Source: Diploptera punctata
Taxonomy: Eukaryota; Arthropoda; Insecta; Blattodea; Blaberidae
Assembly (NCBI GenBank): GCA_030220185.1
Contig: JASPKZ010004200.1
Location: 1-64,000, forward strand
DNA: 64,000 nucleotides
Direction: 5' to 3'
Below, piece after piece: positions 5,359 through 63,272 of this stretch. Under the pieces are notes generated by a model, which saw nothing but the letters and a program-made list of their open reading frames with translations, was not told the DNA's origin and did no database searches. Each line of letters starts with the position of its first letter. Positions within the stretch are counted from its first letter, which is position 1. Both the position numbers and the translations under genes were made by a program.

Positions 5359-5379
5359 TCTCTCTCTCACCCTGTACCT

Positions 5380-5438
<59 letters not shown>

Positions 5439-5446
5439 CCTACACC
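5301..5446. repeat. Compound (TC)n-(AC)n-(AT)n-(GT)n microsatellite
   Basis: (TC)n runs from 5301 to 5370. It is followed by an (AC)n(AT)n(GT)n block at about 5380-5438 that is its own reverse complement and could form a cruciform. Confidence 0.97.
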
Positions 5447-26439: not shown

Positions 26440-27081
26440 CAGAAGTGAATGTACAATACTTCATAGCAACATAGTAAGAAACAACAAGGCAACTGGACCA
26501 AGAGGAATACATTTGGAAATGTTAAAAATTGAGGACCAAAATTAGTAACAAGTTTGTCCAAACTGTATAAAAAGATTTTAAATGGAGACGTAATACCAAG
26601 CAGATGCAACTGGGATACATCACTTCCATATACAAAAATAAAAAGACACAGAAAATTATGCTGCACCGATGAATTTGTGTAATAAATCCTATAATGAAAG
26701 TTTTTTTCTGAAAATTGTCAAACTAAATGTAGAAGAAAGGTAAATTGACCTCGAGAAACAATGCTGGAAGGTTCTGCATAGATTACACTTTTACACTATC
26801 ACTCTTATTGGAAATTTGTAAGGAAAAGTCAAGGATGTCATATATTTGGAAAAGGCATACGATAGTTTCCCAAGGAAACTATTATGGCTAGATCTAAAAG
26901 AAGCATTAATAGATGAAAAAACAATGAAAATGTTAAAATCAATATATTGAGGAAATACATAGCAAATTAAAATGGGAAGTAAGCTATGTAGAGTGAAGAT
27001 TTCACAGCAGAACTAGAGGTGAAGGTAAATTACAATGTGAAAATGTGGAAATTAAAAAAGTTGAAAAATAAAATTATTTAG
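26440..27081 (+). mobile_element. LINE (RTE-like), left half of an interrupted copy
   Basis: Decayed RT coding: NNKATGPRGIHLEMLK, then a motif A remnant LEKAYDSFPRKLLW near 26850, ending at EIKKVEK. The coding then resumes as KYLGSILESD at 37612, after the inserted palindrome. There are many frameshifts. The junction leaves 'aaaattatttag' here (27070-27081) and 'aaaaatatttag' at 37610-37621. Confidence 0.75.
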
Positions 27082-27205
27082 TACTAGTAAAATCCATCTC
27101 AATTTCCGTTGAAGTGAAGTCATATGACGAAAGTTAAAAATTAAATTGTACCTGTTGGTAGGTGCCGTCGTCCTCAACTTGTTAATATATTGTATATAAA
27201 ATTAA

Positions 27206-27243
27206 CTGGAGCGCTTTCGGAAGTTACCTTCCATCTTCTGCAG
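27206..27243 (-). ncRNA. Hammerhead-ribozyme-like motif, PLE family 1, left arm
   Basis: In the minus orientation: CUG, CAGAAGA, stem II U-GGAAG / CUUCC (loop GUAA), GAA, then A-GC-GC-U, C and CAG. The two outer triplets can pair (stem I) and AGC/GCU is self-complementary (short stem III). Position 4 of the conserved CUGANGA box is A instead of U, which would weaken cleavage. Confidence 0.6.
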
Positions 27244-27539
27244 GTTGAGTTTCCGTTGCTTGTTGTTGTGTACGGTGATGTATACTCCAACTGTTTGTAG
27301 CAGCAACTGACTTGTTTTTGACGATCTCGTATAATGGGTTTGACTGGGGTGTGTTCTCATTGAGAAGTGAGTGTTCTTTGTTTCCTTTATAATTTAAAGG
27401 TCTTCAAATATATTTATCCTAGCTGGAATGTTTTCTCGGTGGATTATCGTGAGAGTGTTTTCAATTGTGTTCATTCGATGACCTGCGTTAATGAGATGTT
27501 TAGCATAGCTTGATTTATCATTAGCGTGTATGAAATCTT

Positions 27540-27740
27540 TTAGATGTTCTTTAGCCTATATCTAGTATTGAAATTTCTGCTTGTCCTGCCAATATAAAAT
27601 TTATTACAATCTTTACATGTTAGTTTGTAGACTCCCTTGTTTTTGAATTTGTTGTGTTCTTCTATGCCATTGTATATTATGTTGTTTAATTTGTTTCCTC
27701 TTTTATAAGCTGTGTTAATGTTTTTATTTATCTTTTTCAC
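27540..27740 (-). pseudogene. PLE GIY-YIG endonuclease fragment, left arm
   Basis: Sixty-six codons include GVYKLTCKDCNKFYIGRTS. The G-V-Y ... F-Y-I-G pair is the GIY-YIG signature, and the Cys pair between is typical of Penelope endonucleases. After NFNTRY the frame shifts, and the rest of the domain (HLKDFIHAND-like, then HLINAGHRMN) runs in another frame to about 27260. In PLEs this domain nicks the target to prime reverse transcription. Confidence 0.8.
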
Positions 27741-27840
27741 AGTTATGGCTAGTTTTGTGGTTTCATTTTCTGTGTATGTTAATGTTACCCATGTTTTGTT
27801 ATTGTTAGATTCTCTTTCAAGTTTTGTTATATTTTTTGCG

Positions 27841-28560
27841 TCATTTTTTCTTTTTTTGTTTCTTTATGAGCTTATCAATGATTTGTTTGTTGAATCCGTT
27901 GTTTTTCGCCATGTTTTTAAGATATTGCAGTTCTGTGTTGTAATTTGGTTTGTTCAAGGGTAGTTTAAGCATTATGTTGATTAAACTATTAAATGTGCCG
28001 ATTCTATGTTGGTATGGGTGTCTAGATTTGTTATTAATGGTGAGCATATTATTTGTGGATTTGCGGAAAATATTTATTTCAAGTTTCTTTTGTTGTATGT
28101 TTTTCATTATGGTAAGGTCTAGATAGTTTATTTTGTTATTCAGTTCTATCTCTTCCGTAAATTCTATTTTAGGATGTATATTGTTTAGTTCTAGCAGAAT
28201 TTCCTTTTCTTTTCTGTTCTCATTTTCATAAATAATCATGACGTCATCCACACATCTTGTAATTAGCTTTATATTGAATTTATTTATTAAAGTTTCATAG
28301 TATTTGTTTTCCAAATCTTGTTGAAATATTTCTGTCATTAAACCTGATGTGGGTGATCCCATAGGGATTCCATCTTCTTGTTCATATATTTGGTTATTGA
28401 ATTGGAAATAATTTTGCTTCATCATTGTATTTATGACTATGTGTAATTTGTTTATGTATTCTGTATTTAAGTTACTGTTATCTAGTTTATTTTTTATTAT
28501 GTTTACAGTTTCGTTTATTGGAATGTTAGTGTATAGATTCTTTATGGCAAATGACGCCAT
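27841..28560 (-). pseudogene. PLE reverse transcriptase core, left arm
   Basis: 239 open codons on the minus strand. Fingers/palm begins with IKNLYTNIPINETVNII, then the primer-grip-side motif GIPMGSPTSGLMTEI and the catalytic RCVDDVMIIYEN (D-D pair). NKINYLDLTI and KSRHPYQHRIGTFN follow, all characteristic of Penelope RTs, which are related to telomerase. The N-terminal third of the protein is cut off by the LINE inserted at 28819 and resumes at 31976-32377. The copy is dead because of the insertion and later frameshifts. Confidence 0.85.
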
Positions 28561-29166
28561 TTTCGTATTCTTATTTATTTCTATGTTTTTAAGTTTATAT
28601 GCAAAATCATATGTGTTTTTATTGTGTATTTATCTTCTAATTTCATGTATTCTTTTAGTTTTTGTGCAATTAAATAGGAAATTTTGTAGTAGGGGCGTTA
28701 ATGCAGTTTACTACTGGCCGCATTGGGTTATTGGTTTTGTGTATTTTAGACAAAGCTTTCATTATCGGTACCGTTGGATTGTTGTTTATGAACTTATTTG
28801 TATACTTGTTAAATTCATGGCTTCTTAGGCGGATAAAGAGTTTGGAATCTCAACGGCGAAGAAGGCAGAAGAGATTACCTCAGGATAGGGAGCTGTTGCC
28901 TTGCAGGATGGGAGTTGGTCCTCCAAAGGCTAGGGGAAGACATCAACGATTACAAATTACCTGGTCCTCCAGGTTGGGGGTTAGGCAGAGGGCTAGCACC
29001 CCGATCCTATAGAACAAAGCTTGCTACGTTTCCCAAGAAATTAGCCGGACGGATTAATAGGCATCGACTTTGGCTACGTAAACGGACTTTGGTGTGTGGA
29101 ACTTGGGTATACAAGGAATAAGTGGAAAACTAGTAGAAATAGTTTAAAGAACTAGATACTCTGGAT

Positions 29167-30003
29167 ATGGATATAATCGTTTTAAATGAGACAAAAAAGA
29201 AAGGACAAGAAGTGGTTGGGGATTATATACATTTCTGTAGTGGAGTGCCAAAATCAGAGAAAGCAAAATCACGAGTGGCTGTCCTCATAAAGAGAAAATG
29301 GAAATCTGGAATAGTTAATTGGAAAGAAATAAGTGACAGGATAATTAAGATAACTATACGCATTCATGAAATTACTGTGGAAGTAATAGGGGTATATGCC
29401 CCCAACAATTGTGCTTCAGTTGATGAGAAAAGGGCTTTTTATGAAGATTTGAGAGAAGTAATTGATGATTGTGTGAATGGACATGAGCTCTTGCTAATGG
29501 CAGATTTTAATGGACGTGTTGGTAGAAAAATTAATAGTAACATTGTTGGAGGCTGGGGAGAAGATACAGAAAATGATAATGGTAGGAGGTTGATTGAATT
29601 CTGTAAGGAGCGGGAATGTGTTATCATGAATACAAAGTTTAAACACAAGGATATACATAAATATACCTGGGTAAATCACTCCAGGAATTTGAAGTCTATT
29701 ATAGACTACGTAATAGTAAGACAGCAACGATTGATTAAAGTACAAGATGTTAGAGTACGGAGGAAGATAGAATGTGGATCGGATCATCATATTGTTGTAT
29801 CAAAAATTGCGTTCCCAATGAAAACTAAATTAAAAACAACTAAAACTCAGAAAAATAAAGAAATGACTATTATAGATGACCCCAGATATTTGGTGCATCT
29901 ATTACAGGAAGATAGTGTACGCTACCTATATCAGGAAAGGATGAACAATAGACTGAAAGTAGTAGAGGAGGATTTGAATGCTGAAGGCCTGTATGTTTTT
30001 TAA
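29167..30003 (+). pseudogene. LINE AP-type endonuclease domain, left arm
   Basis: 278 open codons. Motifs in order: DIIVLNETKKKG (catalytic Glu), VYAPNN, LLMADFNGRVG (N/D of the active site), YTWVNHSRNLKSIIDYVIV and GSDHHIVV (terminal catalytic His). All the usual APE-endonuclease residues are present. The true start is upstream: VCGTW and GISGKLVEI are encoded from about 29095 in shifted frames. The ORF ends at a stop at 30003; the linker to the RT (30004-30415) is broken by several stops. In RTE-type LINEs this domain nicks DNA for target-primed reverse transcription. Confidence 0.85.
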
Positions 30004-30415
30004 AAACATTGTGTTAATGGAGTAGCTGAGGAAGTGTTGGGAAGGGAGAGGAAAAGTGGAGGAAGGACAGAATGGATGACTATGGAAGCACTGAAGTTAT
30101 TAATAAAAAAAAAAGAAATTGTACTATAAGTGGTTGCGCTCTAAGAGTTAAAGAAGATCTACAGAAGTACAGAGAATGCAAGAGAAAGGTAAAGTAGGTT
30201 ATAATAAAATGTAAAGAAGAATCATGGGAAAACGTATGTGCTGAAATCGATCATTCATTAGGATACAGAAGATCTGCAGAGGCATGGAGAGTTATAAGGA
30301 GGATGAGGGCAGTTAATAATCCATCACCAGCCTTGAATCTTGTGAATATGGAACAATGGGAGAAGCACTTTAAAAATCTGCTTGTTGAAAAAGGAAGGGA
30401 CAAAAATGTGAAAAT

Positions 30416-31975
30416 TTGGAGTATATGGACAATATATCGTCACGTATGGAACCTATTTTGGAGGAAGAAATAAATCTGGCACTGAAAAAACCAAAGAATG
30501 GTAAAGCCAGTGGACCCAGTGGAATAATGACAGAATTATGGAAATATGGACCCCCCTTATTAAAAAGACTTATCTGTAAAATGTTTAATCAAATTTTGGA
30601 GGGTGATGAAATACCAAAGGATTGGTGTATGTCATATATAACATCTATTCATAAAAAGGGAAATCGTAAAGACCCTGGAAATTACAGAGGAATCAGTGTG
30701 ATGTCATACATGGGTAGAATTTTTAGCAGTATCATCACAAACAGACTTGAACACACTATCGAAGGAAGAATGTTGGAAGACCAAGCAGGATTTACCAGAG
30801 GGAAATCATGCATGGATCACATTTTTAGTCTGAGGCAGATAACAGAAAAATCACATGCTAAGGGCCAGGAAATTCATTTGATATTTGTTGATTTAGAAAA
30901 GGCCTATGGCTCAGTGCCAATCAACCAACTTTGGGATGCAATGGTTGATGTTGGTATCGATTTACCAACGATTTCACTTGTCCGACGGTTGTACCAGCAG
31001 TGTCAGGCTTCGGTTAAAGTGGGTAAGATGATATCCTCTCCATTCAGAACTACTAAAGGCCTGCGACAGGGCTGTAGTATGTCCCCTACTCTGTTCAAAA
31101 TATACATCCAGCATATATTGGAGCAGTGGAATCGATATTGTGGAGGCATGGGAGTACCAGTTCAAGGTGGCACAGTACATTCCTTATTATTTGCAGACGA
31201 TCAAGTGTTGATAGCCCAGAGTCGTGAGGATGTGAAATGCATGATGAGTAAACTTCTAAATGCTTTTGAAATAGGAGGATTAAGAGTAAACATGGAAAAA
31301 ACTGAATATCTTGTAGTAGGAGGAAGTGGACGAGATATATTCCTATCCCAAGGAATTATTAGACCTGTTAAAAATTTAAATATTTGGGATCACTTATTGA
31401 TGAATCAAGGAGTTGTAAAGCTGAAGTAGATAGCAGGTTAGTACAAGCACGAAGAGCCATAAAAATGTTGAATGGAGTTCTGTGGAGTAGGACCATGTCA
31501 AACCACACGAAGAAGAGGATTTTGAAGTCTGTTGTGGAAAGCATAATGACTTATGGTGCTGAGGGATGGACTTTGATAGAGGGACAAAAAACTAAGATCT
31601 TGGCAGTGGAGATGGATGGAATAAGACGCAGTGCCAGGGTGTCCAGGTTGGAAAGAAGATGAAATGAAGAAGTGAGGCAGATGATGGATATGGAGGAAAC
31701 TGGTGGAAAGGATCGAAAGACGAGCTCTTCAGTGGTACGGCCATGTCAGGAGAATGGAGGATGATAGGTGGCCCAAAACTCTTTTGGAATGGTCACCTTC
31801 TGGTAGAAGAAAACGGGGCAGGCCAAGAACAACTTGGAGAGGAGAGATCCATAGATTGATGAATGACCGAGGTCTGGAGGAGGATGAATGGCGTGATTGG
31901 CAAGAATGGCGAATTGGAATACAGGGTAACCGCCGAAAAGTGGAGAGACCCTCAAAAGTAAATAAAAAAAAGTAA
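30416..31975 (+). pseudogene. LINE reverse transcriptase and C-terminal domain, left arm
   Basis: The first 337 codons (30416-31429) hold the RT: KNGKASGPSGIMTELW, SYITSIHKKGNRKDPGNYRG, EDQAGFTRGKSCMDHI, motif A FVDLEKAYGSV, TTKGLRQGCSMSPTLF and motif C LLFADDQVLIA. The second Asp usual in motif A (AYD) is Gly in both arms. A frameshift near 31400 moves reading to 31384-31662, and a stop plus shift to 31703-31975 (WYGHVRRMEDDRWPKTLLEW, RPRTTW). Three breaks make this copy non-functional. Confidence 0.85.
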
Positions 31976-32377
31976 GTTAAATTCATTGGACATGTTTTTG
32001 TTAGTTCTTTAAATTTTCTGTCAAAATTTAACTGTTGGATCTTTGTCGATTTTCTTGAATTTATTTTCATCTATGAATTGTTTCGTTTTTTCAGTATAAT
32101 CATCTTTGTTCATTAGTACCGTTATGTTACCTTTATCGGCTTTGTATGTATTATGTTATTATTTTTGAGTTAAGTTTTTAATTTATTAAGGTGTTTTAAA
32201 TTATTCTTTTCTTTATTACTTACTGCGGGTGAAATTTCATTGATGGTTTTAGCAACTTGGTATCTTGCATGGTCTTTATTATTTATTTGTAATTTATTAA
32301 TTGCAATTTCGCTTTCGATTATCATATTTTCTTTTATCCTGTTGGTATTCGTTGTGGAGAAACAAGAATACTTGAAA
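31976..32377 (-). pseudogene. PLE N-terminal coding part, left arm
   Basis: The minus strand carries the decayed PLE N-terminus, best seen near 32000-32100 as MNKDDYTEK, QFIDENKF and KFDRKFKELTKTCP. The basic N-terminal 'MNKxDYxxK ... DPT' segment is typical of Penelope RT proteins. It mirrors 32407-32780. Confidence 0.7.
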
Positions 32378-32406
32378 ATGGATACAAGTTCATTTTCCCC
32401 ACTACC
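32350..32406. other. Asymmetric spacer at the palindrome centre
   Basis: Fifty-seven bases that are not reverse complementary separate the arms, flanked by 'gttggtatt' and 'aataccaac'. They do not resemble a sequencing adapter. Confidence 0.8.
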
Positions 32407-32780
32407 AATACCAACAGGATAAAAGAAAATATGATAATCGAAAGCGAAATTGCAATTAATAAATTACAAATAAATAATAAAGACCATGCAAGATACCAAG
32501 TTGCTAAAACCATCAATGAAATTTCACCCGCAATAAGTAATAAAGAAAAGAATAATTTAAAACACCTTAATAAATTAAAAACTTAACTCAAAAATAATAA
32601 CATAATACATACAAAGCCGATAAAGGTAACATAACGGTACTAATGAACAAAGATGATTATACTGAGAAAACGAAACAATTCATAGATGAGAATAAATTCA
32701 AGAAAATCGACTAAGATCCAACAGTTAAATTTTGATAGAAAATTTAAACAACTAACAAAAACATTCCCAATGAATTTAAC
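32407..32780 (+). pseudogene. PLE N-terminal coding part, right arm
   Basis: Plus-strand coding with frameshifts: ENMIIESEIAINKLQINNK, QVAKTINEISP, then MNKDDYTEKTKQFIDENKF and KFDRKFKQLTKTFP. It is cut at 32780 by the LINE and resumes at 35941. Confidence 0.7.
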
Positions 32781-33330
32781 TTACTTTTTTTTTTACTTAC
32801 TTTTGAGGGTCTCTCCACTTTTCAGCGGTTACCCTATATTCCAATTCGCCATTCTTGCCGATCACGCCATTCATCCTCCTCCAGACCTCGGTCGTTCATC
32901 AATCTATGGATCTCTCCTCTCCAAGTTGTTCTTGGCCTGTCCCGTTTCCTTCTACCAGAAGGTGACCATTCCAAAAGAGTTTTGGGCCACCTATCATCCT
33001 CCATTCTCCTGACATGTCCGTACCACTGAAGACCTCGTCTTTCGATCCTTTCCACCACTGTTTCCTCCATATCCATTATCTGCCTCACTTCTTCATTTCA
33101 TCTTCTTTCCAACCTGGACACCCTGGCACTGCGTCTTATTCCATCCATCTCCACTGCCAAGATCTTAGTTTTTTGTCCCTCTATCAAAGTCCATCCCTCA
33201 GCACCATAAGTCATTATGCTTTCCACAACAGACTTCAAAATCCTCTTCTTCGTGTGGTTTGACATGGTGCTACTCCACAGTACTCCATTCAACATTTTTA
33301 TGGCTCTTCGTGCTTGTACTAACCTGCTAT

Positions 33331-34458
33331 CTACTTCAGCTTTACAACTCCCTGATTCATCAATAAGTGATCCCAAATATTTAAATTTTTAACAGGTCTA
33401 ATAATTCCTTGGGATAGGAATATATCTCGTCCACTTCCTCCTACTACAAGATATTCAGTTTTTTCCATGTTTACTCTTAATCCTCCTATTTCAAAAGCAT
33501 TTAGAAGTTTTCTCATCATGTATTTCACATCCTCGCGACTCTGGGCTATCAGCACTTGATCGTCTGCAAATAATAAGGAATGTACTGTGCCACCTTGAAC
33601 TGGTACTCCCATGCCTCCACAATATCGATTCCACTGCTCCAATATATGCTGGATGTATATTTTGAACAGAGTAGGGGACATACTACAGCCCTGTCGCAGG
33701 CCTTTAGTAGTTCTGAATGGAGAGGATATCATCTTACCCACTTTAACCGAAGCCTGACACTGCTGGTACAACCGTCGGACAAGTGAAATCGTTGGTAAAT
33801 CGATACCAACATCAACCATTGCATCCCAAAGTTGGTTGATTGGCACTGAGCCATAGGCCTTTTCTAAATCAACAAATATCAAATGAATTTCCTGGCCCTT
33901 AGCATGTGATTTTTCTGTTATCTGCCTCAGACTAAAAATGTGATCCATGCATGATTTCCCTCTGGTAAATCCTGCTTGGTCTTCCAACATTCTTCCTTCG
34001 ATAGTGTGTTCAAGTCTGTTTGTGATGATACTGCTAAAAATTCTACCCATGTATGACATCACACTGATTCCTCTGTAATTTCCAGGGTCTTTACGATTTC
34101 CCTTTTTATGAATAGATGTTATATATGACATACACCAATCCTTTGGTATTTCATCACCCTCCAAAATTTGATTAAACATTTTACAGATAAGTCTTTTTAA
34201 TAAGGGGGGTCCATATTTCCATAATTCTGTCATTATTCCACTGGGTCCACTGGCTTTACCATTCTTTGGTTTTTTCAGTGCCAGATTTATTTCTTCCTCC
34301 AAAATAGGTTCCATACGTGACGATATATTGTCCATATACTCCAAATTTTCACATTTTTGTCCCTTCCTTTTCTCAACAAGCAGATTTTTAAAGTGCTTCT
34401 CCCATTGTTCCATATTCACAAGATTCAAGGCTGGTGATGGATTATTAACTGCCCTCAT
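33331..34458 (-). pseudogene. LINE reverse transcriptase, right arm
   Basis: 375 open codons, longer at the N-terminus than in the left arm because a 1-base difference near 34370 keeps the frame (NLLVEKRKGQKCENLEYMD). It has the same RT motifs, including AYGSV in place of AYDSV and LLFADDQVLIA. The C-terminal part continues in other frames at 33098-33376 and 32834-33088, the latter with WYGHVRRM and RPRTTW. Confidence 0.85.
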
Positions 34459-34758
34459 CCTCCTTATAACTCTCCATGCCTCTGCAGATCTTCTGTATCC
34501 TAATGAATGATCGATTTCAGCACATACGTTTTCCCATGATTCTTCTTTACATTTTATTATAACCTACTTTACCTTTCTCTTGCATTCTCTGTACTTCTGT
34601 AGATCTTCTTTAACTCTTAGAGCGCAACCACTTATAGTACAATTTCTTTTTTTTTTATTAATAACTTCCAGTGCTTCCATAGTCATCCATTCTGTCCTTC
34701 CTCCACTTTTCCTCTCCCTTCCCAACACTTCCTCAGCTACTCCATTAACACAATGTTT

Positions 34759-35665
34759 TTAAAAAACATACAGGCCTTCAGCATTCAAATCCTCCTCTAC
34801 TACTTTCAGTCTATTGTTCATCCTTTCCTGATATAGGTAGCGTACACTATCTTCCTGTAATAGATGCACCAAATATCTGGGGTCATCTATAATAGTCATT
34901 TCTTTATTTTTCTGAGTTTTAGTTGTTTTTAATTTAGTTTTCATTGGGAACGCAATTTTTGATACAACATATGATGATCCGATCCACATTCTATCTTCCT
35001 CCGTACTCTAACATCTTGTACTTAATCAATCGTTGCTGTCTTACTATTACGTAGTCTATAATAGACTTCAAATTCCTGGAGTGATTTACCCAGGTATATT
35101 TATGTATATCCTTGTGTTTAAACTTTGTATTCATGATAACACATTCCCGCTCCTTACAGAATTCAATCAACCTCCTACCATTATCATTTTCTGTATCTTC
35201 TCCCCAGCCTCCAACAATGTTACTATTAATTTTTCTACCAACACGTCCATTAAAATCTGCCATTAGCAAGAGCTCATGTCCATTCACACAATCATCAATT
35301 ACTTCTCTCAAATCTTCATAAAAAGCCCTTTTCTCATCAACTGAAGCACAATTGTTGGGGGCATATACCCCTATTACTTCCACAGTAATTTCATGAATGC
35401 GTATAGTTATCTTAATTATCCTGTCACTTATTTCTTTCCAATTAACTATTCCAGATTTCCATTTTCTCTTTATGAGGACAGCCACTCGTGATTTTGCTTT
35501 CTCTGATTTTGGCACTCCACTACAGAAATGTATATAATCCCCAACCACTTCTTGTCCTTTCTTTTTTGTCTCATTTAAAACGATTATATCCATATCCAGA
35601 GTATCTAGTTCTTTAACTATTTCTACTAGTTTTCCACTTATTCCTTGTATACCCAAGTTCCACAC
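34759..35665 (-). pseudogene. LINE AP-type endonuclease, right arm (frameshifted)
   Basis: 224 open codons (34991-35665) start further upstream than in the left arm (NLGIQGISGKLVEI) and contain DIIVLNETKKKG, VYAPNN, LLMADFNGRVG and IIDYVIV. A base change near 34990 shifts the frame just before the terminal SDHH region, which continues at 34759-34989. Left and right arms therefore carry different small lesions. Confidence 0.85.
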
Positions 35666-35940
35666 ACCAAAGTCCGTTTACGTAGCCAAAGTCGATGCCT
35701 ATTAATCCGTCCGGCTAATTTCTTGGGAAACGTAGCAAGCTTTGTTCTATAGGATCGGGGTGCTAGCCCTCTGCCTAACCCCCAACCTGGAGGACCAGGT
35801 AATTTGTAATCGTTGATGTCTTCCCCTAGCCTTTGGAGGACCAACTCCCATCCTGCAAGGCAGCAGCTCCCTATCCTGAGGTAATCTCTTCTGCCTTCTT
35901 CGCCGTTGAGATTCCAAACTCTTCATCCGCCTAAGAAGCC

Positions 35941-37600
35941 ATGAATTTAACAAGTATACAAATAAGTTCATAAAAAACAATCCAACGGTACCGATAATGA
36001 AAGCTTTGTCTAAAATACACAAAACCAATAACCCAATGCGGCCAGTAGTAAACTGCATTAACGCCTCTACTACAAAATTTCCTATTTAATTGCACAAAAA
36101 CTAAAAGAATACATGAAATTAGAAGATAAATACACAATAAAAAACACATATGATTTTGCATATAAACTTAAAAACATAGAAATAAATAAGAATACGAAAA
36201 TGGCGTCATTTGCCATAAAGAATCTATACACTAACATTCCAATAAACGAAACTGTAAACATAATAAAAAATAAACTAGATAACAGTAACTTAAATACAGA
36301 ATACATAAACAAATTACACATAGTCATAAATACAATGATGAAGCAAAATTATTTCCAATTCAATAACCAAATATATGAACAAGAAGATGGAATCCCTATG
36401 GGATCACCCACATCAGGTTTAATGACAGAAATATTTCAACAAGATTTGGATAACAAATACTATGAAACTTTAATAAATAAATTCAATATAAAGCTAATTA
36501 CAAGATGTGTGGATGACGTCATGATTATTTATGAAAATGAGAACAGAAAAGAAAAGGAAATTCTGCTAGAACTAAACAATATACATAAAATAGAATTTAC
36601 GGAAGAGATAGAACTGAATAACAAAATAAACTATCTAGACCTTACCATAATGAAAAACATACAACAAAAGAAACTTGAAATAAATATTTTCCGCAAATCC
36701 ACAAATAATATGCTCACCATTAATAACAAATCTAGACACCCATACCAACATAGAATCGGCACATTTAATAGTTTAATCAACATAATGCTTAAACTACCCT
36801 TGAACAAACCAAATTACAACACAGAACTGCAATATCTTAAAAAACATGGCGAAAAACAACGGATTCAACAAACAAATCATTGATAAGCTCATAAAGAAAC
36901 AAAAAAAGAAAAAATGACGCAAAAAATATAACAAAACTTGAAAGAGAATCTAACAATAACAAAACATGGGTAACATTAACATACACAGAAAATGAAACCA
37001 CAAAACTAGCCATAACTGTGAAAAAGATAAATAAAAACATTAACACAGCTTATAAAAGAGGAAACAAATTAAACAACATAATATACAATGGCATAGAAGA
37101 ACACAACAAATTCAAAAACAAGGGAGTCTACAAACTAACATGTAAATATTGTAATAAAATTTTATATTGGCAGGACAAGCAGAAATTTCAATACTAGATA
37201 TAGGCTAAAGAACATCTAAAAGATTTCATACACGCGAATGATAAATCAAGCTATGCTAAACATCTCATTAACGCAGGTCATCGAATGAACACAATTGAAA
37301 ACACTCTCACGATCACCCAGAAAACATTCCAGCTAGGATAAATATATTTGAAGATCTTGAAATTATAAAGGAAACAAAGAACACTCACTTCTCAATGTGA
37401 ACGCACCCCAGTCAAACCCATTATACGAGATCGGCAAAAACAAGTCAGTTGCTGCTACAAACATCACCGTACACAACCACAACAAGCAACGGAAACTCAA
37501 CCTGCAGAAGATGGAATGTAACTTCCGAAAGCGCTCCAGTTAATTTTATATACAATATATTAACAAGTTGTGGACGACCGCACCTACCAACAGGTACAAT
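35941..37600 (+). pseudogene. PLE reverse transcriptase and GIY-YIG region, right arm
   Basis: Plus-strand coding resumes after the LINE with SKIHKTNNPMRPVVNCI (the usual 'PKxHK ... PMRPI' segment) at about 36005-36060. The open stretch 36113-36883 (256 codons) follows, with IKNLYTNIPINETVNII, MGSPTSGLMTEI and RCVDDVMIIY. Compared with the left arm there is a 3-base deletion (NNIHKIEF versus NNIHPKIEF) and a frameshift near 36840. The GIY-YIG part (GVYKLTCK, then LYWQDKQK in a shifted frame) runs to about 37500. Confidence 0.85.
37502..37540 (+). ncRNA. Hammerhead-ribozyme-like motif, PLE family 1, right arm
   Basis: Same layout as 27206-27243, but stem II reads GGAAU/ACUUCC, losing one pair. 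CUG (37502-37504) and CAG (37537-37539) form stem I. AGCGCU gives a minimal stem III, which is known to work as a dimer in other PLE hammerheads. Confidence 0.55.
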
Positions 37601-37611
37601 TTAATTTTTAA

Positions 37612-38165
37612 AAATATTTAGGATCAATTTTAGAATCAGATGTGAAAAGTTGTATTGAAATTGAAATTAAGAGAGAAATTAGTGAAAGAAGAAAAGAAAT
37701 TGGAATGTGAAATTCAGTGATATTGAGCAAAAAATATTAGAAATAAAGCCATGACGCTTATATTTAAATCAATAGTACAAAGTCTTATGTTGTATCATGC
37801 AGAGATCTGGACTTTAGGTAGGCAGCAAGCAAAAAGATTGTTGGAAACAAAGATGGATTTTTGGTGAGCATGAAGGAAATCAAGAAAGGAGAAAATTCGG
37901 AACAAGAAAATTAAATAAATAATGAATGTTAAACATAATATTATAGTAGTAATAGAATAATGAAGATTGAAATGGTACGGACATCTGAAAAGGATGGAGA
38001 ATAAGAGTTCCAAGAATGATGCTAGATTTGGTTGCTGAAGGCAGGAGGAGGAAGGGGAAACTCAGGGAATAGTCGATGGATGAAGTGAGAAGAAACATGA
38101 TGAGTAGAGGCCTCAAAGAAGAAGATGCTGAGAATAGGTGGCGAATCAAAATACATTTGTACTGA
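37612..38165 (+). mobile_element. LINE (RTE-like), right half of the interrupted copy
   Basis: It resumes in frame with KYLGSILESDVKSCIEIEI and ends in decayed coding for a WYGHLKRM-like and 'ggaggaggaaggggaaa' (RRRKGK) C-terminus near 38060. It is contiguous with 26440-27081 if the PLE palindrome and one target copy are removed. Confidence 0.75.
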
Positions 38166-43060: not shown

Positions 43061-43132
43061 TTAATTATTAAGTCTTATTAATATAAAATTATAGAATATT
43101 CACCTGAAAGGTCCGTCTCCTCAACTTAATTA

Positions 43133-43592
43133 TCATTTAACTGTAGCGCTTTCGGGACTTGTCCCATCATCGGCAGGATTCAAAACTGGTGTTTCACTGA
43201 AGATCTGGTAGAGGGGGTTACATGTATTGGGTTCGTTTTCGTTTATCAGGCTGTCGTTGTGAGCTGCTTTCATGATTTCCATCTCTTCGAGTACGTTGAT
43301 CTTCGCTGGATTATTTTCTCTGTGTATTACTGTTAGGGTGTTTTCAATATTTAACATGCGATGTCCTTCATGGATAACGTGTTTTGCATAGCTTGATTTA
43401 CCTTCTGCGTGAATGAAGTCTCGAAAATATTCTTTGAATCTGATGTTAAAACTCCTGTTTGTCCTTCCTATATAAAATTTGTTGCAGTCCTTACATGTCA
43501 GTTTATAAACTCCTTTGCTGTTGAAAATGTTATTTTCTTCAATGTTATTGTTTATTATGTTGTTTAATTTGTTATTGGTTCTGTATGCTATA
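43133..43592 (-). pseudogene. PLE GIY-YIG endonuclease domain, left copy (larger)
   Basis: In minus reading: NNKLNNIINNNIEE, GVYKLTCKDCNKFYIGRTN, then FRDFIHAEGKSSYAKHVIH and GHRMLNIENTLTVIHREN to a stop at 43133. G-V-Y/F-Y-I-G and the downstream H/E/N residues of the GIY-YIG fold are all present. It is 5' truncated, so no RT remains. The sequence is clearly a different PLE family from the 27-37 kb dimer, though the layout is the same. Confidence 0.8.
43139..43178 (-). ncRNA. Hammerhead-ribozyme-like motif, PLE family 2, left copy
   Basis: CUG, CCGAUGA, U, stem II GGGA(C) / (G)UCCC, GAA, AGCGCU, A, CAG. It overlaps the last codons of the GIY-YIG ORF. Position 4 is C instead of U. Confidence 0.6.
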
Positions 43593-43940
43593 TTATTTTA
43601 TATAGGAAGGACAAACAGGAATTTTAACATCAGATTCAAAGAACATTTTCGAGACTTCATTCACGCAGAAGGTAAATCAAGCTATGCAAAACACGTTATC
43701 CATGAAGGACATCGCATGTTAAATATTGAAAACACCCTAACAGTAATACACAGAGAAAATAATCCAGCGAAGATCAACGTACTCGAAGAGATGGAAATCA
43801 TGAAAGCAGCTCACGACGACAGCCTGATAAACGAAAATGAACCCAATACATGTAACCCCCTCTACCAGATCTTCAGTGAAACACCAGTTTTGAATCCTGC
43901 CGATGATGGGACAAGTCCCGAAAGCGCTACAGTTAAATGA
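43593..43940 (+). pseudogene. PLE GIY-YIG endonuclease domain, right copy (smaller)
   Basis: It starts at FYIGRTNRNFNIRFKEHF and continues, 1 to 3 residues different from the left copy (for example AAHDDS versus AAHNDS), to the same stop. The GVY half of the motif is lost at the truncation point. Upstream codons in this frame (43515-43592) are antisense of the left copy and not genuine. Confidence 0.8.
43896..43933 (+). ncRNA. Hammerhead-ribozyme-like motif, PLE family 2, right copy
   Basis: Identical to the left-copy motif. Stem I is CUG (43897-43899) with CAG (43930-43932). The GGGAC/GUCCC stem replaces GGAAG/CUUCC of family 1 and GGAAC/GUUCC of family 3, a set of compensatory changes. Confidence 0.6.
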
Positions 43941-44054
43941 TAATTAAGTTGAGGAGACGGACCTTTCAGGTGAATATTCTATAATTTTATATTAATTTGA
44001 ATAAACCTCAACGGAACACATCATGAATCTTGTAAAAGTTGATTATTAAGTCTG

Positions 44055-51965: not shown

Positions 51966-52234
51966 ACTTACATATTTGCGTCTCCATTCGGAAATTAAAG
52001 TATAAGTACTGATTTATAGCCAAATGTTTGTCTTGGTTCTCTGTTGCTAAGGGTTGTTACAACACTGTACTGAGTGTCGCAGTTAGAAACATATGAAGGC
52101 GTATTACACATTATCAACAGTAATCTAACAAGAGGACAGGGGTGCAGAAATACCTGAATTTGTAACGTGTTCTTTAGTCCGAAGGAGAGGATCCTGTCCG
52201 CTATCCAAAATATTAAGTTAGTCACTAATATATC

Positions 52235-53345
52235 ATGGAGAGACACCCTGTAAGTTGGACAATATCTATTGTAATACCAATATTTAAAAAAGGAGACAAG
52301 AAAAACTGTGAAAATTACAGAGGCATCAGCTTACTAAATACTGGATACAACATTTACGCCAATATAATTAAGAACAAGTTATACAAACATCTTAACAGCC
52401 TCCTCAGCGAAGAAAAGAATGGCTTCCGTAAAGGTCGATCCTGCTGTGATGATTACTTCTCCATGAAATTATTAATAGAAAAACACAGGGAGTTCAATGT
52501 AGAAACACATTTAGCTTTTGTGGACTTCAAAAAAGCCTTCGACAAAATCAATAGGAATAAACTGTTGGAAATTTTAGCTGACAACAATCTACCACAACAG
52601 CATATTTTAAATTGATATATCTATAAAACAAATTTGATTTCAGTCCGAGTCAATAATGCACAAACATAATGGACCGAAATTAATAGGGGCCTAAGACAAG
52701 GATGTGGCCTCTCGCCCTAGCTCTTTATCATATACATGGATAGAATACTCCAAGATTGGCGACAGATGAGACACGGTTCTATCCAAATTAATAGAAACCT
52801 AAAAATAGACTCCCTGCTTTTTGCAGATGATTTGGTGTTAATAGCTCCAACAGAAACAGATTTACTGTATTCTATACACAGTTTTAATATACTTACAAAA
52901 AGGTACAATATGGAAATCAATACAAAGAAAACTAAAGTGATGGCTTTTTGTGGGAAATACCCTATACCTAGCAAAATTGTTTTGGATGATGACATTTTAG
53001 AACGAGTTTAATTTAATTATTTGGGTTATAATTTAACATTTCAAGATGAAGCTGATATACCAAAGAAAATCACAAATTTCACAACAACAACGGGGATAAT
53101 TAACAGTATAATGAAACCATCTTTAGTACAGAACAACACAAGATTACGGCTTTAAAAGGTTCTCGCAACACCAGTAATAAGATATGGCAGTGAAGCATGG
53201 ACATACGAGGAAGAGATGAAAGCCGAATAACAGCAGATGAGATGCGATTTATGCGCCCTACAGCAGGCTACACAAAGTGGGACCATAAAAGAAATGATGA
53301 TTTGTTGTTTCACTTGAAACCTAAAAGTTAACTAAAACAATTTCA
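52235..53345 (+). pseudogene. LINE reverse transcriptase, 5'-truncated
   Basis: The first stretch (52235-52615) has IPIFKKGDKKNCENYRGISL, EEKNGFRKGRSCCDDYF and motif A LAFVDFKKAFDKI. After a stop come NRGLRQGCGLSP and, in 52736-53011, motif C LLFADDLVLIA followed by MEINTKKTKVMAF. Further decayed text reads NYLGYNLTF, TPVIRYGSEAWTYEE and RRTAGYTKWDHKRNDD-like. Stops at 52615, 52720 and 53011 kill the ORF. Coding similarity stops near 53300-53345, where the inverted repeat of the hAT region begins, so the LINE tail was probably lost in that rearrangement. Confidence 0.85.
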
Positions 53346-53678
53346 CCACTTATTTTTTATATATAATATTTTGAGGGCATTATTCTTCATTAAGGTCTAT
53401 TGAATTAATTAATTTAATTGTTTATATGATTTTTTGTGAGATTTTCATATTTTGTTGACTTCCTTGTATCGACATAATACTTCTCCGTGTATCGACGTTA
53501 CACCAAGAACAGTATCGGTCTGGCATGTATGCAGTACACGCGATTCTCAAAAGATGTCTCGCCCGTACACAAAATTGTTATAAGCACAGATCTTTTCACT
53601 GATTCAGATTATGTTGGTTTTATCTTATTGTTGCAGGCCTATTATCTCCTCTACTATTCAGTTTTCTACTAGAGCATG

Positions 53679-56313
53679 CATGGGCGTAGCCAGCATTGGA
53701 TTAAGGGGGGTGCAATTTTTTTTTACTGTATACCTTCCGGGTACAAACGAACAAATCAAAAATACAAAAAACTACCTTTATATTTTAAACTGACTTCCAT
53801 ATATTTTAGAAGAAAACTACAGCGCTATTGATGAGGAAATATAAAGAATAATAGTGAAATAATCGCTGCATTTTTAGGCTTGGTGAATTAAGATTTTGTC
53901 AAGATTACTTCGTCATTTTTTATACTTAATTGTATTGAAACTATTATCTATGTTTTAGCTACTACTCAAGTACAATTAGCCTATACACATAGTTCGACTC
54001 GCCTTTTCGTTTGAAAACGTTTTTTAAGTACGTTTTTTTTTAATTTTTCAATATAATTTTAGTAAGTTTTTTTTCTGTAGACTGAGCATGCACAGGCCAT
54101 GAAGGCAATGTTCTGTAATATATAGAACGGCACCATGTCTTCACTCTTCTTAGGGTGCTAAAAGTACATTCAATCGAAGCCGTAACGCTTGGTAAAGGCA
54201 GGCATATTACAATTGCTTTTTGATGGATGGGGAAAAAATCGCACTCGTCCACGATGTTAACGAAATCACCTTCTTTATCCATGTCACTTCGTTTCATACA
54301 TATACGGTGCCATAGTTCAATTCCGGTGGACAGACCCTCGATTTTATAATACTCTGAAATTTTGCACGCTGTTGCTTGGGTATTTTTCAGAGATGTTTTT
54401 AGGTTCTTAGGGTGCAGCATTTGAAGTTGTTCTCCAAATCTGTGTGACAAAGCTGTTATAGCAGTATTTTAATACCATAATAAATATGAAAGTTAAAGTT
54501 AATAATTTTATATTTTAAAATTCTTTTAATATTTAAATATAACTTAAATAAAGAAAAAATCTAAACAATTAATTGTTGTTCATTGTTGAATAAAAATGTC
54601 TCAATAACAATTAAAGAAATTGTATTATATAACAGTCTTTCTAAATAATGCTTTTAAAATTGTGTCTTAAGTCATTGTTGTCTGAAATATAAAGCTTTCT
54701 GTTATAACTGTAATAAGAACACCTGCTTAACTTAATATCTTTAAATAAAAGTATACTAAATTCTGATTGGATGTTAAAAAAATTAACTTTTTGATTTAAC
54801 CAATCAAATCTAAACCTGGTATTTAATGGATCATTAAACAATAGAATTTAAATTAAAATCATGTGATGTAATAATGTTCTTTAATATTATAACAGAATTA
54901 CTCTTGGAGTCTATATATAACTTTCATCAAAGATAGAAGCTATAAGAACTCTCCTGATAAAATGTGAAATTTAATACCAGAAGAGTAATTGATTTCAGAC
55001 AAGAAAATAATATATTTAATTGACAGTGAAGAATAATATCACTTAAATTTACTTAATCTGCTGGGAACCTACAAAATGAATAAATTTATTACTAGTTCAG
55101 TTATTAGTGATTTCTAAAGTGTTTTCCTATCCTGTGTACCAACTTCGACCTTGAGAAGAGAATCCAGCTCTACCGGAAAATCAAACCCAACCTGAACCAG
55201 TAATTCTTATTTATTATTTTTGGACACTAATCCTTCAAAATTGCGCCCACAACGTGGAAAATAATGAAGAACTGACTAAATACTTCTTCAAAATGTCGCC
55301 ACAACGAGGGGCACGATTCTATACTTCTTCAAATTGTCGCCACAACGAGGGCCTAATTCTATATTCCTTCACTGTGTGAAAGGAATCCAGGTAGGAATTT
55401 AAGATGGGATTACATCGTGGATTAGCTCGATTTTTCTGCTTATTGGATATTCTTGGTAGTGTGATTTATACACCTAGCTCACAAGGAATAGTTTCCATCT
55501 CTTTCGTGATGCTTTCTCATAACCTTTTTTTGCGATCTATTAACATGATTTTAATGCTTTTAACATGGGCCGTGCATTTAATTAAATCTATAGCCACGGC
55601 TTGCAGCGAATTAACGACAGGTTCCAAATAACTTGAATATTTTGCTATCAGGCACAAACAAAATATGAAAGCACTTCTACTTGCAACAGCATTCAACTGA
55701 TCAGCTTATTTTCGGCCTGGTGCGATTCTTTCTACGGCATTCAATTTGAGACCGTTCATCAATTCCACAAAGTGTTTCTTAAATATCCCAGTACTTTTAT
55801 ATTTTTGCAACCAATGTGTTTCGCAGAGCATGGGGATGTTTGGGACGTGCTGTCTTCTCAACGGCTACTCTCGAAAAAAGTTTATAATATCCTTAATTGT
55901 AGCTATCGTGTTTCTCACCTCAGACACACTATTTAAATCATTTACCACAACAATGATTTTGTGGCTCGCGCAGTGGAAGTAAATACCTTTTGAAAAAAAC
56001 TCGCGCAGACGTTTCTGGACCCTGTTGTCTTTTCCTGCCATTGTTGAGCAGCCATCATAGCTCTGACCGACCCATTGTGCGGGTCAATGTCTATTTATCT
56101 GGAAAAAAGAACTCAATATCTGCAACAATTGATTGAGCGTCGATCCTTTTAAGATTAACAAAGCCCAAAACTCTTCTAGAATTTTATTCAGTTTTTCATT
56201 TAAAAAATCGCACACCATTGGGCAATTGCTCCTTTCCAGAAATGTCACAGTATTCATCAGCTAAAACATTCTAAGCGCTAGCATTTTTTACAAGATCCGC
56301 AATCATTATCTTA
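53679..56313 (-). pseudogene. hAT transposon (ZMYM1/TTF-finger type), left copy
   Basis: Minus orientation. 56313-55378 encodes decayed transposase middle: GQSYDGCSTMAGK, FHCASHKI and VVNDLNSVSEVRNTIATIKDIINFF. After the insert, 54450-54040 is open for 136 codons: SHRFGEQLQML, KISEYYKIEGLSTGIELW, then the hAT dimerisation motif LPSVTASIECTFSTLRRVKTW. The outer 3' end at 53679 reads 'catgggcgtagccagcattg', a hAT-like terminus. It is 5' truncated at 56313, where an unrelated LINE fragment begins. Confidence 0.7.
54457..55371. mobile_element. 915-bp insert in the left hAT copy, possibly an LTR
   Basis: It is absent from the right arm and flanked by 'ctgt' at 54453-54456 and 55372-55375. The interior has a TATA-like 'gtctatatataact' (54910) and, at 55240, 'attgcgcccacaacgtgg', like an LTR primer-binding site. 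Two near copies follow ('gtcgccacaacgagg') at about 55300 and 55340. LTR origin is a guess. Confidence 0.4.
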
Positions 56314-56458
56314 ACCTATGCTGATGATTTAGTATAATTAGGCGAAAGCGAGGAGATACTAAGGGCCAACACACTCAAACTATTCAGTAACACTAATAAA
56401 TTGGGAATGAAAATTGATATCAATAAAACTAAATATAGGTTATGGTCACGCATACAGT
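56290..56458 (+). mobile_element. LINE RT fragment (motif C)
   Basis: Plus-strand LTYADDLV, then a stop, GESEEILRANTLKLFSNTN and MKIDINKTKYR. This is the segment around LINE motif C. The mariner-like element at 56468 interrupts it. Confidence 0.65.
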
Positions 56459-56467
56459 ATGATTCAG

Positions 56468-57767
56468 AAATATGGCTATACGTTTGATCGCATTTTGTGA
56501 CGAAAATATTATTATTAAAGGAAATATGATGTTATCATTGGAAAGGGAATCCTTTAAATTACAACAATAGAACAAAACAAATCACTTACAACAACACTAA
56601 GCAAGTCACTTTATTGCTTCAAACTCTTCGCCGTTTACATCCAAGCATAATTGGCATCACTTTGGGAAGTCATTCATTGCGTTATGATACATGTTTAGAG
56701 CAATATCTCTAATTTCTTCCTCAATCACTAATTTCAGCATGTCGACGTCTTGAGGTTTCCGGGCATAAACCTTCTCCTTCAAATAACCCCACAACCAATA
56801 GTCACACGCTGTGAGGTCTGGGGAACGGGCTGGCCATTCAATGGGGCCTCTTCTTCCCACCCACCTGTTTTACAAATGATCATCCAAAATTTCCCTCTCC
56901 GCAATTGCAAAGTGAGGAGGCTCACATTCCTGCAGGAATAAACATTGTTCATGGTCAGCACTTTGCATTACCAGCAGGACAATTTGTCTAAGGATATCAC
57001 TATACCGATCACCATTAACAGTCTCATCCAAAATTCGCATTCCTAACAGTTCTTCCCATCCGATCATAGCCCAAACAGTGACTTTGCCGCATCCTAAACG
57101 TGTCTCTTCAATAACATTAGGATTCTCTTTACCATAATAGTGACAATTGTGTCGATTAACACTTCCGTTGAAATGAAAACAGCTTCATCAGAAAAGTGCA
57201 ATTTTCTGTACCAATGTTCGTCGTTTGCTGATTCCCTTATAAGGAATTCACAAAATTCCATCCGCCTGTCAGGGTCGTCTTCATTATGTTCGTGGACACG
57301 AGTCGGTTTGAAGGGGTGGTACTTCTCACGCTTCATAACACGACACACACTCGATTGACTGATATAAAGCTCACGTGTAGCTTGGCAGGTTGATTTTTGT
57401 TGGCTAGCGTTGTGTCTGCATCCGTGCTAATGCGAGGCCTTCCAGGAGGTTTGATTTTCAGCATCTTTCCGGGTTTCCAGCAGTCATTTGCTCCACTTCC
57501 CCACAGTCGACGGCTGCAATTCTACGTTAAACTCACGTCTTGCCCGTCTTGAGGCCTCACGATCATTAGCATACGTTATTGCCCATGCAGCAATTGTAAT
57601 TTTATGTTGCATATTCAACGCCATTTTGACTAATGACATAAGTTCTACACTGTTTTGTTTTATTCCATTGTTGTAATTTGAATAATTGCCTTTCCAACGG
57701 TAATTTCATATTTTCTGTAATGGTAATATTTTCATCACACAACGCGATCAAACGTTTAGCCATATTT
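56468..57767 (-). mobile_element. Mariner-superfamily-like transposon, decayed, with ~75-bp inverted ends
   Basis: The ends 'aaatatggctatacgtttga' and 'aaatatggctaaacgtttga' are inverted and stay similar for about 75 bp. 'atgattcag' occurs directly on both sides (56459-56467, 57768-57776). A TA-flanked reading is also possible. The 1.3-kb interior encodes a broken transposase. Confidence 0.75.
56657..57625 (-). pseudogene. Broken mariner-like transposase
   Basis: Minus reading in at least four frames. The HTH region is near 57620 (AITYANDREASRRARREFNV). Then come SQSSVCRVMKREKYHPFKP, HFSDEAVF (first Asp) near 57190, a second-Asp region degraded to LQECEPPHFA near 56945, and RRGPIEWPARSPDLTACDYWLWGYLK (third Asp) near 56830. 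The second catalytic Asp appears changed. It is related in layout to the intact element at 23449 but clearly another lineage. Confidence 0.75.
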
Positions 57768-57779
57768 ATGATTCAGAAG

Positions 57780-58200
57780 TAAAAAAATAAAATTAAGCTC
57801 GCCAAGCCCAATCGTTATGATATACCAATTTATAAAGTACCTGTCCCAGTGGACATAAGTATCGCCAATACGCCAGAAAGGTTTAGACCTCTATTATAAA
57901 CGGCTAACGCAGCATTCACTCCTCGTATTTCAGCTGAGTACCTGAGTATGTTTTTCGACGCCTAGTCGCTTGTCGAAGCTTCGCTTGACCTCGACTCTTC
58001 ATTGGCCGCACACACTTCTAAAGTGAATGCCGTTTTTACAGCCTTATATTGTGCAACGCCCACTTACCGTATTTGGTCAAAGGTTCGCCATGACTGTACC
58101 TCATATTTTCTAGAACGTTCGATAGGCACAAATAATTATATAATTAATATGTTCTTTACTCGAAGATTCTAGACTCATGCTTTAACGTTGAACTACGCGT
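57780..58200. other. No confident feature
   Basis: Possibly the 5' part of the hAT element downstream. No terminal inverted repeat matching 60664 was found here. Confidence 0.35.
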
Positions 58201-58204
58201 ATTC

Positions 58205-60664
58205 GTACGTGTATGCGTCAGAATGGATATAATAAAATTCTTTGGTAAGTTGCCTACCTAAACAAGTTCTATCATTGCAATTTTATTTTTTCCCCCGGAT
58301 AGTTTAGAAGGCATCACATCCGAAAAAGAAGATTTACCCACCATATGATATTGTCAACTGGTTCGGGAGAAGAGAGCTAATGAGTAAAGAAGTTAAAGTG
58401 AAAATTATGACAAACTGCTGGAATCCACCCGAAAGCTACAATTGCAGCAAATATGCTGAACATTTAAACGGAAGTTCAAGTTGTTGGATCCAACAATATT
58501 CATCCTGGCTAAAGTATTCCGCAAAACTTAAGGGTGCACTCTGTATATATTGTATTCTATTGTGAGGGGCGTTAAATGGTCATTCATAGTGAGGCCCTTC
58601 CAGAAGTTTTTCAAAATGCATGAATTCGTAAAAAAAAAATCCGAGAGGCGCTGGCATATGCAAGTTACGCAGTCAACATGCTTGTTTTAAGCGAGGTCCC
58701 TGTTAGGCAAAATCTCGTAAGTGCCTATAAGAAAATTGCGGCGGGGCACGAAATATTTGTTTTCCATCTCGGATACCACTATCTTCAGTGGCTTACATGA
58801 CTTGTATTTAAGGGGTGAAACACCGGAAGAAGGCGTTTTCAGGGATTTGATTCAGTGGAGAATCTTGATACCGGTGATATAAGCTTGAAACCTCATTTAA
58901 ACGCCACGAATGCTACCTATGTTTTTCCATATATTAAAAATGAATTGACTGTAATATATGACTTGAGGTAAAGATAATGATTGCGGATGATGTAAAAAAG
59001 TATTTTAGCTGATGCATGCTGCGATATTTCTGGGAAGGAATAATTTTCCAATGGTGTGCGGTTTTTTATGAAAAACAATAAAATTCTAGAAGAGTTTTGG
59101 GCTTTGTTAAACGTAAAAGAATGGACGCCCAATCAATTGTTGTAGATATTGAGTTTTTTTTTCAGATAAATAGACATTGACCCGCACAATGGGTCGGTCA
59201 AGGCTATGATGGCTGCTCAACAATGGCAGGAAAAGACAACAGGGTCCAGATACGTCTGCTTGACTATTTTTCAAACTTCTACTGCGCGAGCGACAAAATC
59301 ATTCTTGTGGTAAATGACTTGAATAGTATGTCTGAGGTGAGAAACACGATAGCTACAATTAAGGATATTATAAACTTTTTTGAGAGTAGACGTTGAGAGA
59401 ACAGCACGTCCCATGCATCCCCATGCTCTGCGAAACACATTGGTTGCAAAAAATGTAAAAGTACTGGGATATTTAAGAAACACTTTTTGGAATTGATGAA
59501 CGGTCTCAAATTGATTGCCGTAGAAAGAAACGCACCAGGTCGAAAAGAAGCTCATCAGTTGAATGAAGTTGCTTTCATATTTTGTTTGTGCCTGATAGCA
59601 AAATATTCCAGTTATTTGGAACCTGTCGTTAATTCGCTGCGAGCCGTGGCTATAGATTCAATTAAATGCACGGCCCATGTTAAAAGCATTAAAATCATGT
59701 TAATAGATCGCAAAAAATAGGTATGAGAAGGCATCATGAAAGAGATGGAAACTATTGCTTCTGAGCTAGATGTATAAATCACACTATCAAGAATATCCAA
59801 TAAGCAGAAAATCCAGCTAATCCACGATGTAATCCCGAATATTGCTTTAAGGTGGCCATCTTAAATCCTTATTTGGATTCCTTTCACACAGCTTTGTCAC
59901 ACAGATTTGGAGAACAACTTCAAATGCTGCACCCTAAGAACCTAAAAACATCTCTGAAAGATACCCAAGCAACAGCGTGTAAAATTTCAGAGTATTATAA
60001 AATCGAGGGTCTGTCCACCGGAATTGAACTATGGCACCGTATATGTATGAAACGAAGTGACACGGATAAAGAAGGTGATTTCGTTAACATCGTGGACGGG
60101 TGCCATTTTTTTTCCCATCCATCAAAAAGCAATTGTAATATACCTGTCTTAACCAAGCGTTACGGCTTCGATTGAATGTACTTTTAGCATCTTAAGAAAA
60201 GTGAGGACATAGTGCCGTTCTAAAATGACAGAACATCGCCTTCATGGCCTGTCTATGCTCAGTCTATACAAAAAAAAACTAAAATTACATTGGAAAATTC
60301 AAATAAAACGTACTTAAAAAACGTTTTCAAACGAAAAGGCGAGTCGAACTATATATGTATATGCTAATTGTACTTGAGTAGTAGCTAAAACATAGCTAAT
60401 AGTTTCAATACAATTAAGTATAAAAAATGACGAAGTAATCTTGACAAAATCTTAATTCACCAAGCCTAAAATTTCAGCAATTATTTCACTATTATTTTTA
60501 TATTTCCTCATCAATAGCGCTGTTGTTTTCTTCTAAAATATATGAAAATTAATTAAAAATATAAAGGTTGTATTTTGTATTTTTGATTTGTTCGTTTATA
60601 CCCAGAAGGTATACAGTGGAAAAAAAATTGCACCCCTCTTAATCCAATGCTGGCTATGCCCATG
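58205..60664 (+). pseudogene. hAT transposon (ZMYM1/TTF-finger type), right copy
   Basis: Plus orientation. 58340-58565 encodes the TTF-type finger region: YDIVNWFGRRE, KVKIMTNCWNPPE, WLKYSAKLKGALCIYC. GVFRDLIQWRI, VVNDLNSMSEVRNTIATIKD (59310), LSHRFGEQLQML and GIELWHRICMKRSDTDKEGD (59852-60150) follow, then a frameshifted dimerisation region near 60180. There are frequent stops. The 3' terminus at 60664 mirrors 53679. Proteins of this kind are often annotated as zinc finger MYM-type 1-like and are hAT transposases by descent. Confidence 0.7.
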
Positions 60665-60974
60665 CATGCTCTAGTACAAAATTGAATAGCGGAAGAGATA
60701 TAGGCCTGCAACAATAAGATAAAACCAACATAAGAATCTGAATCAGTGAAAAGATCTGTGCTTATAAAAATTTGTATATGGGCGAGACATCTGTTGAGCA
60801 TTGTGTGTACTGTATGCATGCCAGACCGATACTGTTCTTAGTGTAACGTCGATACACGGAAAGTATTATGTCGATACAAGGAGGTCAACAAAATATGAAA
60901 ATCTCACAAAAAATCATATAATGAATTAAAATTTATGAATTCAATAGACCTTAATGAAGAATAATGCCCTCAAA

Positions 60975-61020
60975 ATATTATATATATATATATATATTAT
61001 ATATATATATATATATATAA
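60975..61020. repeat. (AT)n microsatellite
   Basis: Dinucleotide AT tract in the right arm. The left arm has only a short 'ttttatatataat' there, so it expanded after the duplication. Confidence 0.9.
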
Positions 61021-62805: not shown

Positions 62806-62821
62806 ATATTATTATTATTAC

Positions 62822-62856
<35 letters not shown>

Positions 62857-63241: not shown

Positions 63242-63272
<31 letters not shown>

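Follow-up and report, generated by a model that had tools for sequence, protein, structure and literature searches.

The window, i.e., the whole stretch of 64 kb that we analyzed, contains a large palindrome composed of nested mobile elements. Comparison of its left and right halves using BLASTN showed that the arms at 27134–32362 and 37611–32394 are inverted copies with 98.53% identity over 5238 columns, including 48 mismatches and 29 gap positions. The first-pass annotation had claimed reverse complementarity between 27134–32349 and 32407–37611; this was borne out over 27134–32362 and 32394–37611, and its 57-bp centre, obtained under a stricter count, was reduced to 31 unmatched bp by BLAST. 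Up to position 32349, the arms differ by 41 substitutions (22 transitions and 19 transversions) and 14 indel events. Each arm is a 5′-truncated Penelope-like element (PLE) interrupted by an antisense LINE that is the same in both, and the PLE coding direction runs outward from the centre in each arm, i.e., the two copies lie head-to-head. We confirmed that this palindrome, with a PLE and an antisense LINE in both arms, is real. The element family is ordinary; its configuration is unusual and informative.

The left PLE lies on the minus strand and consists of a 3′ part at 27134–28807, which was delimited by full-length PLE protein matches and contains the reverse transcriptase (RT) core, the endonuclease end and the 3′ repeat region, and a 5′-truncated inner part at 31987–32362. 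The right PLE lies on the plus strand, with a 5′-truncated inner part at 32394–32769 and a 3′ part without a tail at 35952–37609. Both inner parts were identified by the BLASTN arm match together with PLE protein matches, and the right 3′ part by PLE protein matches and RVT_1 (E 2.9e-7), indicating that the RT expected of a PLE is present. Full-length PLE relatives matched the two arms with E-values down to 7e-64 and 3e-65, and telomerase RT matched the PLE weakly (E 0.0079). The few named protein matches were from insects (termites, a cockroach and a firefly). The GIY-YIG profile scored 17.3 bits in the left arm, below its cut-off of 22.6, and was not listed for the right arm; relatives such as P0007, which contain a GIY-YIG domain, align across that part of the PLE. 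Unrelated Pfam families in the endonuclease part scored below the cut-off and were set aside. Relatives of approximately 800 residues (P0152 and P0211) align only from residue 160–164 onward; therefore, both PLE copies are 5′-truncated.

Hammerhead ribozymes are frequent, but not universal, in PLE terminal repeats, and we found no Rfam hammerhead match in the terminal repeat here up to an E-value of 1. The 16 Rfam matches obtained up to that value, all below gathering scores, were miRNA models on simple repeat and snoRNA/scaRNA-type models. A hairpin of CA/TA/TG simple repeat at 5374–5445 drew several of the miRNA models, which are very likely spurious. Long simple-repeat arrays were also observed at 62790–63690 and 1906–2181 (ATT/TTC-rich and ATAG in ~69 copies, respectively).

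The nested LINE, 3.16 kb in length, occupies 28819–31975 on the plus strand in the left arm (protein matches at 29095–31942) and 32781–35940 on the minus strand in the right arm, where both an endonuclease domain (Exo_endo_phos, 2.5e-8) and an RT domain (RVT_1, 6.5e-36) were detected. We placed its boundaries by protein homology, and an 11-bp repeat was then found there. The left arm carries GTTAAATTCAT at 28808–28818 and 31976–31986, and the right arm carries its reverse complement at 32770–32780 and 35941–35951. The repeat is perfect, bounds the LINE in each arm and occurs nowhere else in the 64-kb window. The same target duplication in both PLEs, as had been proposed for the antisense LINE, was therefore upheld, and the element has the endonuclease, RT, target duplication and A-rich 3′ tail of a non-LTR retrotransposon. 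PLE protein alignments are interrupted at the LINE; P0148 stops at residue 186 on the inner side and resumes at 198 on the outer, and P0141 stops at 174 and resumes at 189, respectively. Elsewhere in the window, LINE RT remnants at 2480–3889 (minus strand) and 52169–53299 (plus strand) were matched by most of the LINE proteins used.

The whole dimer is bounded by a 12-bp target duplication at 27070–27081 (AAAATTATTTAG) and 37610–37621 (AAAAATATTTAG), the two copies of which agree at 11 of 12 positions; among random pairs of 12-mers drawn from the flanks, a proportion of only 0.0003 match equally well. The first-pass annotation had noted a repeat of about this length at the junction, and it adjoins both dimer ends. 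Among the matches listed, individual proteins aligned to both flanks with their order preserved, as P0026 did at residues 250–296 on the left and 449–539 on the right. Judging from these alignments, the flanks are parts of one decayed LINE that hosts the insertion. Between the flank matches, approximately 150 residues are expected, whereas only ~200 bp are present; therefore, some sequence of the host LINE had been lost. The first-pass annotation described this LINE as reading continuously across the insertion. Its peptides EIKKVEK and KYLGSIL were indeed read in the flanks, but the continuity is only approximate, owing to the missing sequence and a frame slip within an A-run when the flanks are joined.

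Although the arms mirror each other, the ends of the two PLE copies are not alike. The left PLE carries a 52-bp 3′ tail at 27082–27133 (minus strand), located between the target duplication and the arm, whereas the right arm has none. The unmatched centre (32363–32393, plus strand) was assigned to the right PLE copy by profile score and protein reach. Using a profile of 32 PLE proteins, 18 centre residues added 12 bits in the right frame (43.2 vs 31.1), a gain reached by 0 of 500 shuffles; the same profile gained 1.8 bits across the centre in the left frame, and 239 of 500 shuffles reached that gain. In addition, the alignments of 29 of 35 PLE proteins in the right arm extended beyond the spacer, compared with 4 of 36 in the left. 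As few proteins crossed in the left frame and the profile score rose only in the right one, assignment of the centre to the left PLE was rejected. The best matches of the centre piece were E 0.95 in PDB and E 0.12 in Pfam, and its assignment rests on full-length relatives. With the centre being part of the right arm, the right cDNA would have run further in the 5′ direction.

A second, smaller head-to-head PLE dimer is located at 43064–44053, with 402-bp arms that are 99% identical and an exact 12-bp duplication. Its PLE belongs to a related family (74–75% identity to the 3′ part of the main PLE), and its ends mirror those of the main dimer. The tail is on the right (43997–44041), and the longer 5′ end is on the left, where relatives align from GVYKLTC; the right arm begins at YIGRT. 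A one-sided tail adjoining the target duplication, as is characteristic of PLEs, was thus present in both dimers, measuring 52 bp at the left end of the main dimer and 45 bp at the right end of the second, with none at the opposite ends. In one local 12-base stretch, the tails agree at 11 positions (p ~0.01). In both of the two dimers examined, a small number, the tail and the longer 5′ end lie on opposite arms.

We also considered 53358–60986 as a third PLE dimer and rejected it, as none of 18 PLE proteins matched it at 1e-6. This region consists of two-part repeats in inverted orientation to each other, with identities of about 93% and 90%, and contains a reading frame which we take to resemble the C-terminus of a hAT transposase. 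The frames between its arms presumably resemble a mariner-type transposase.

The arrangement of tails and 5′ ends bears on how the palindrome was formed. Self-priming has been proposed as a source of inverted PLE copies in a study of rotifer Penelope elements (PMC3846280); in the present case, a single LINE-carrying cDNA would have folded back on itself to prime synthesis of the second strand. A single folded cDNA would put the tail and the 5′ extension, i.e., the loop, on the same arm; therefore, the opposite-arm pattern speaks for two cDNAs, and both dimers, although n = 2 only, point to two independently started cDNAs. The centre does fold as a hairpin with a short loop, as self-priming predicts and as any palindrome centre would. 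Also in favor of self-priming is that the two 5′ ends lie within ~38 bp of each other, for which two random ends in 5.25 kb have a chance of ~1.4%. For two cDNAs, such near-coincident ends require either that the RNA end was fixed or that reverse transcription stopped at a particular site, which the centre, with its imperfect inverted repeat, might have provided. Considering both sides, we regard self-priming as quite improbable here.

The two arms also have lesions in common. In the inner PLE, both arms carry the same stop and the same two frame changes, with one further stop in the right arm only; more common frame changes occur near 28690 and 27850, and both arms have CVDD where 4 of 4 relatives have YVDD. 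As the arms share these inner-PLE lesions while differing by 2.15% there, the template was apparently already broken. The common lesions fit a dead source copied in trans and also a decayed arm that was spread by conversion. A dead source copied in trans has a reported parallel in a rotifer Penelope that carries a gene with an intron (PMC3846280).

Divergence between the arms is a mosaic, with no substitutions in a 2300-bp core of the LINE and approximately 2.2–2.7% in the outermost PLE, the LINE 3′ end and the inner PLE. Along the PLE, we counted 10 substitutions in the outermost 390 bp (2.56%), 2 in 1077 bp at 27524–28600, 2 in the 222 bp next to the LINE and 8 in the inner 372 bp (2.15%). 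Along the LINE, the counts were 2 in the first 78 bp, 0 in the 2300-bp core and 17 in the 777 bp of the 3′ end (2.19%). The possibly homogenised stretch corresponds to 28901–31200 in left-arm coordinates, and a substitution-free gap of 2312 bp was not reached in 20000 uniform simulations. As the first-pass annotation had suggested, we compared the PLE and LINE parts separately; the LINE was somewhat less diverged overall (19/3155 vs 22/2061, Fisher p 0.077), a comparison confounded by the mosaic and the variation within each part, and it leans to lower LINE divergence because the smooth core lies mostly within the LINE. At the inner LINE/PLE edge, there was no step between the last 777 bp of the LINE and the adjoining 372 bp of the PLE (p 1.0), and at the outer edge the counts (2/222 vs 2/78) were too small to distinguish the sides. 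The lack of a step at the inner edge favours a template that contained the LINE from the outset over the LINE's later transfer from arm to arm. At its 3′ end, the LINE has diverged as much as the adjoining PLE, indicating that both have been present in the two arms for about as long, as would be expected of a LINE carried by the template.

The alternative, that a PLE dimer formed first and a LINE then entered one arm and was copied to the other by gene conversion, gains from the substitution-free LINE stretch, which suggests inter-arm exchange, from the lower overall LINE divergence and from the common lesions, which may derive from a decayed donor arm. However, it requires a tract covering nearly the whole arm as well as another event within the core, the PLE parts do not differ clearly in age (2.56% outermost and 2.15% inner), and the similar divergence on both sides of the inner edge speaks against it. 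We therefore consider this order of events unlikely. As the arms have perhaps exchanged sequence, conversion is nevertheless available as a mechanism.

The smooth core contained 5 indels and no substitutions, compared with 9 and 41, respectively, elsewhere (p 0.0006), and 4 of the 5 indels lie within single-base runs. A near-identical tract bounded by diverged arms is what either arm-to-arm gene conversion or polishing would give. The core thus reflects either recent conversion, the indels being sequencing errors, or polishing with cross-mapped reads, which erased the differences. The different frameshifts of the arms, previously cited as evidence that they are not one read folded on itself, are weak evidence, since the indel pattern of the core resembles sequencing error. 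An assembly artefact affecting the core would also agree with the position of the diverged parts, which are closest to unique anchors, as expected of polishing with cross-mapped reads. Polishing might account for the core, but not for the palindrome. The right flank is a different part of the host LINE rather than a reversed left flank, a target duplication is present at both ends and a tail at one, and the substitutions outside the core, together with the unlike dimer ends, are good evidence against an artefact. As an explanation of the palindrome, we consider an assembly artefact very improbable; for the smooth core, polishing is an alternative to conversion.

From the anatomy, the duplications, the unlike ends, the mosaic divergence and the common lesions, we infer an RNA origin, two-sided priming, help in trans and an order of events. 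Our best explanation, held with modest confidence, is that the RNA of a defunct, LINE-carrying PLE was copied in trans from both sides of a cut and joined head-to-head, and that the core was later homogenised or polished. A defunct PLE copy already carrying the antisense LINE would have been transcribed, and PLE machinery supplied in trans would have used the two sides of a staggered cut in the resident LINE to copy this RNA. The left reverse transcript may have started further 3′ on the RNA, yielding the 52-bp tail, and the right one inside the tail, leaving no tail and extending further towards the RNA 5′ end. Both cDNAs would have traversed the LINE, and their 3′ ends may have been joined over short imperfect homology, producing the head-to-head dimer and the 12-bp duplication. 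Subsequently, either conversion between the arms would have homogenised their middles, or assembly polishing would have smoothed them. The earlier interpretation thus stood in its anatomy; of the two histories that it offered, the one with the LINE in the template is favoured and the one by conversion is disfavoured.

In vitro, PAc, the protein of the Poseidon PLE of Anolis carolinensis, cleaves both strands of its target and extends them, with a preference for A+T-rich DNA; it begins copying at two RNA sites, the spacing of which equals the tail (PMC11167929). Two-strand cutting and extension, two start sites and A+T-rich targets are points of likeness to the origin proposed for the dimer, whereas the PAc data are in vitro and an inverted dimer product is not described in the accessible portion of that report (PMC11167929). 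The endonuclease-bearing Penelope elements of Adineta vaga have inverted pseudo-LTRs, between which a foreign gene was mobilised, and share with the dimer the head-to-head inverted copies, short target duplications, junction palindromes and, optionally, a tail (31 bp) at one inverted end (PMC3846280). Their inverted parts are mostly short pseudo-LTRs (PMC3846280), whereas each arm here is ~5.2 kb long and contains the same nested LINE. Large palindromes with converted arms, such as those of sex chromosomes, similarly form an inverted repeat with a possibly homogenised stretch; the present case differs in being a transposon insertion in which conversion is at most a later event. Inverted PLE copies, tails and capture of foreign sequence are therefore already known, and the same LINE in both arms is new; in the open-licence papers searched, we found no PLE palindrome in which each arm contained a foreign element.

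As a caution, palindrome arms in assemblies may appear falsely uniform. For the origin of inverted PLE copies, self-priming has been proposed in the rotifer study (PMC3846280), and two-strand cutting and extension have been shown in vitro in the PAc study (PMC11167929). The LINE-tagged dimer makes the mechanism of PLE inversion testable from genome sequence. Tentatively, and as a possibility to which we give somewhat less weight than an even chance, the LINE may serve as a natural tracer, marking the arms as separate reverse transcripts of one broken, LINE-carrying RNA made by two-sided priming in trans. PLE machinery would then be able to copy a 5-kb nested transposon and insert it as two inverted copies, which may be how inverted PLEs generally arise.
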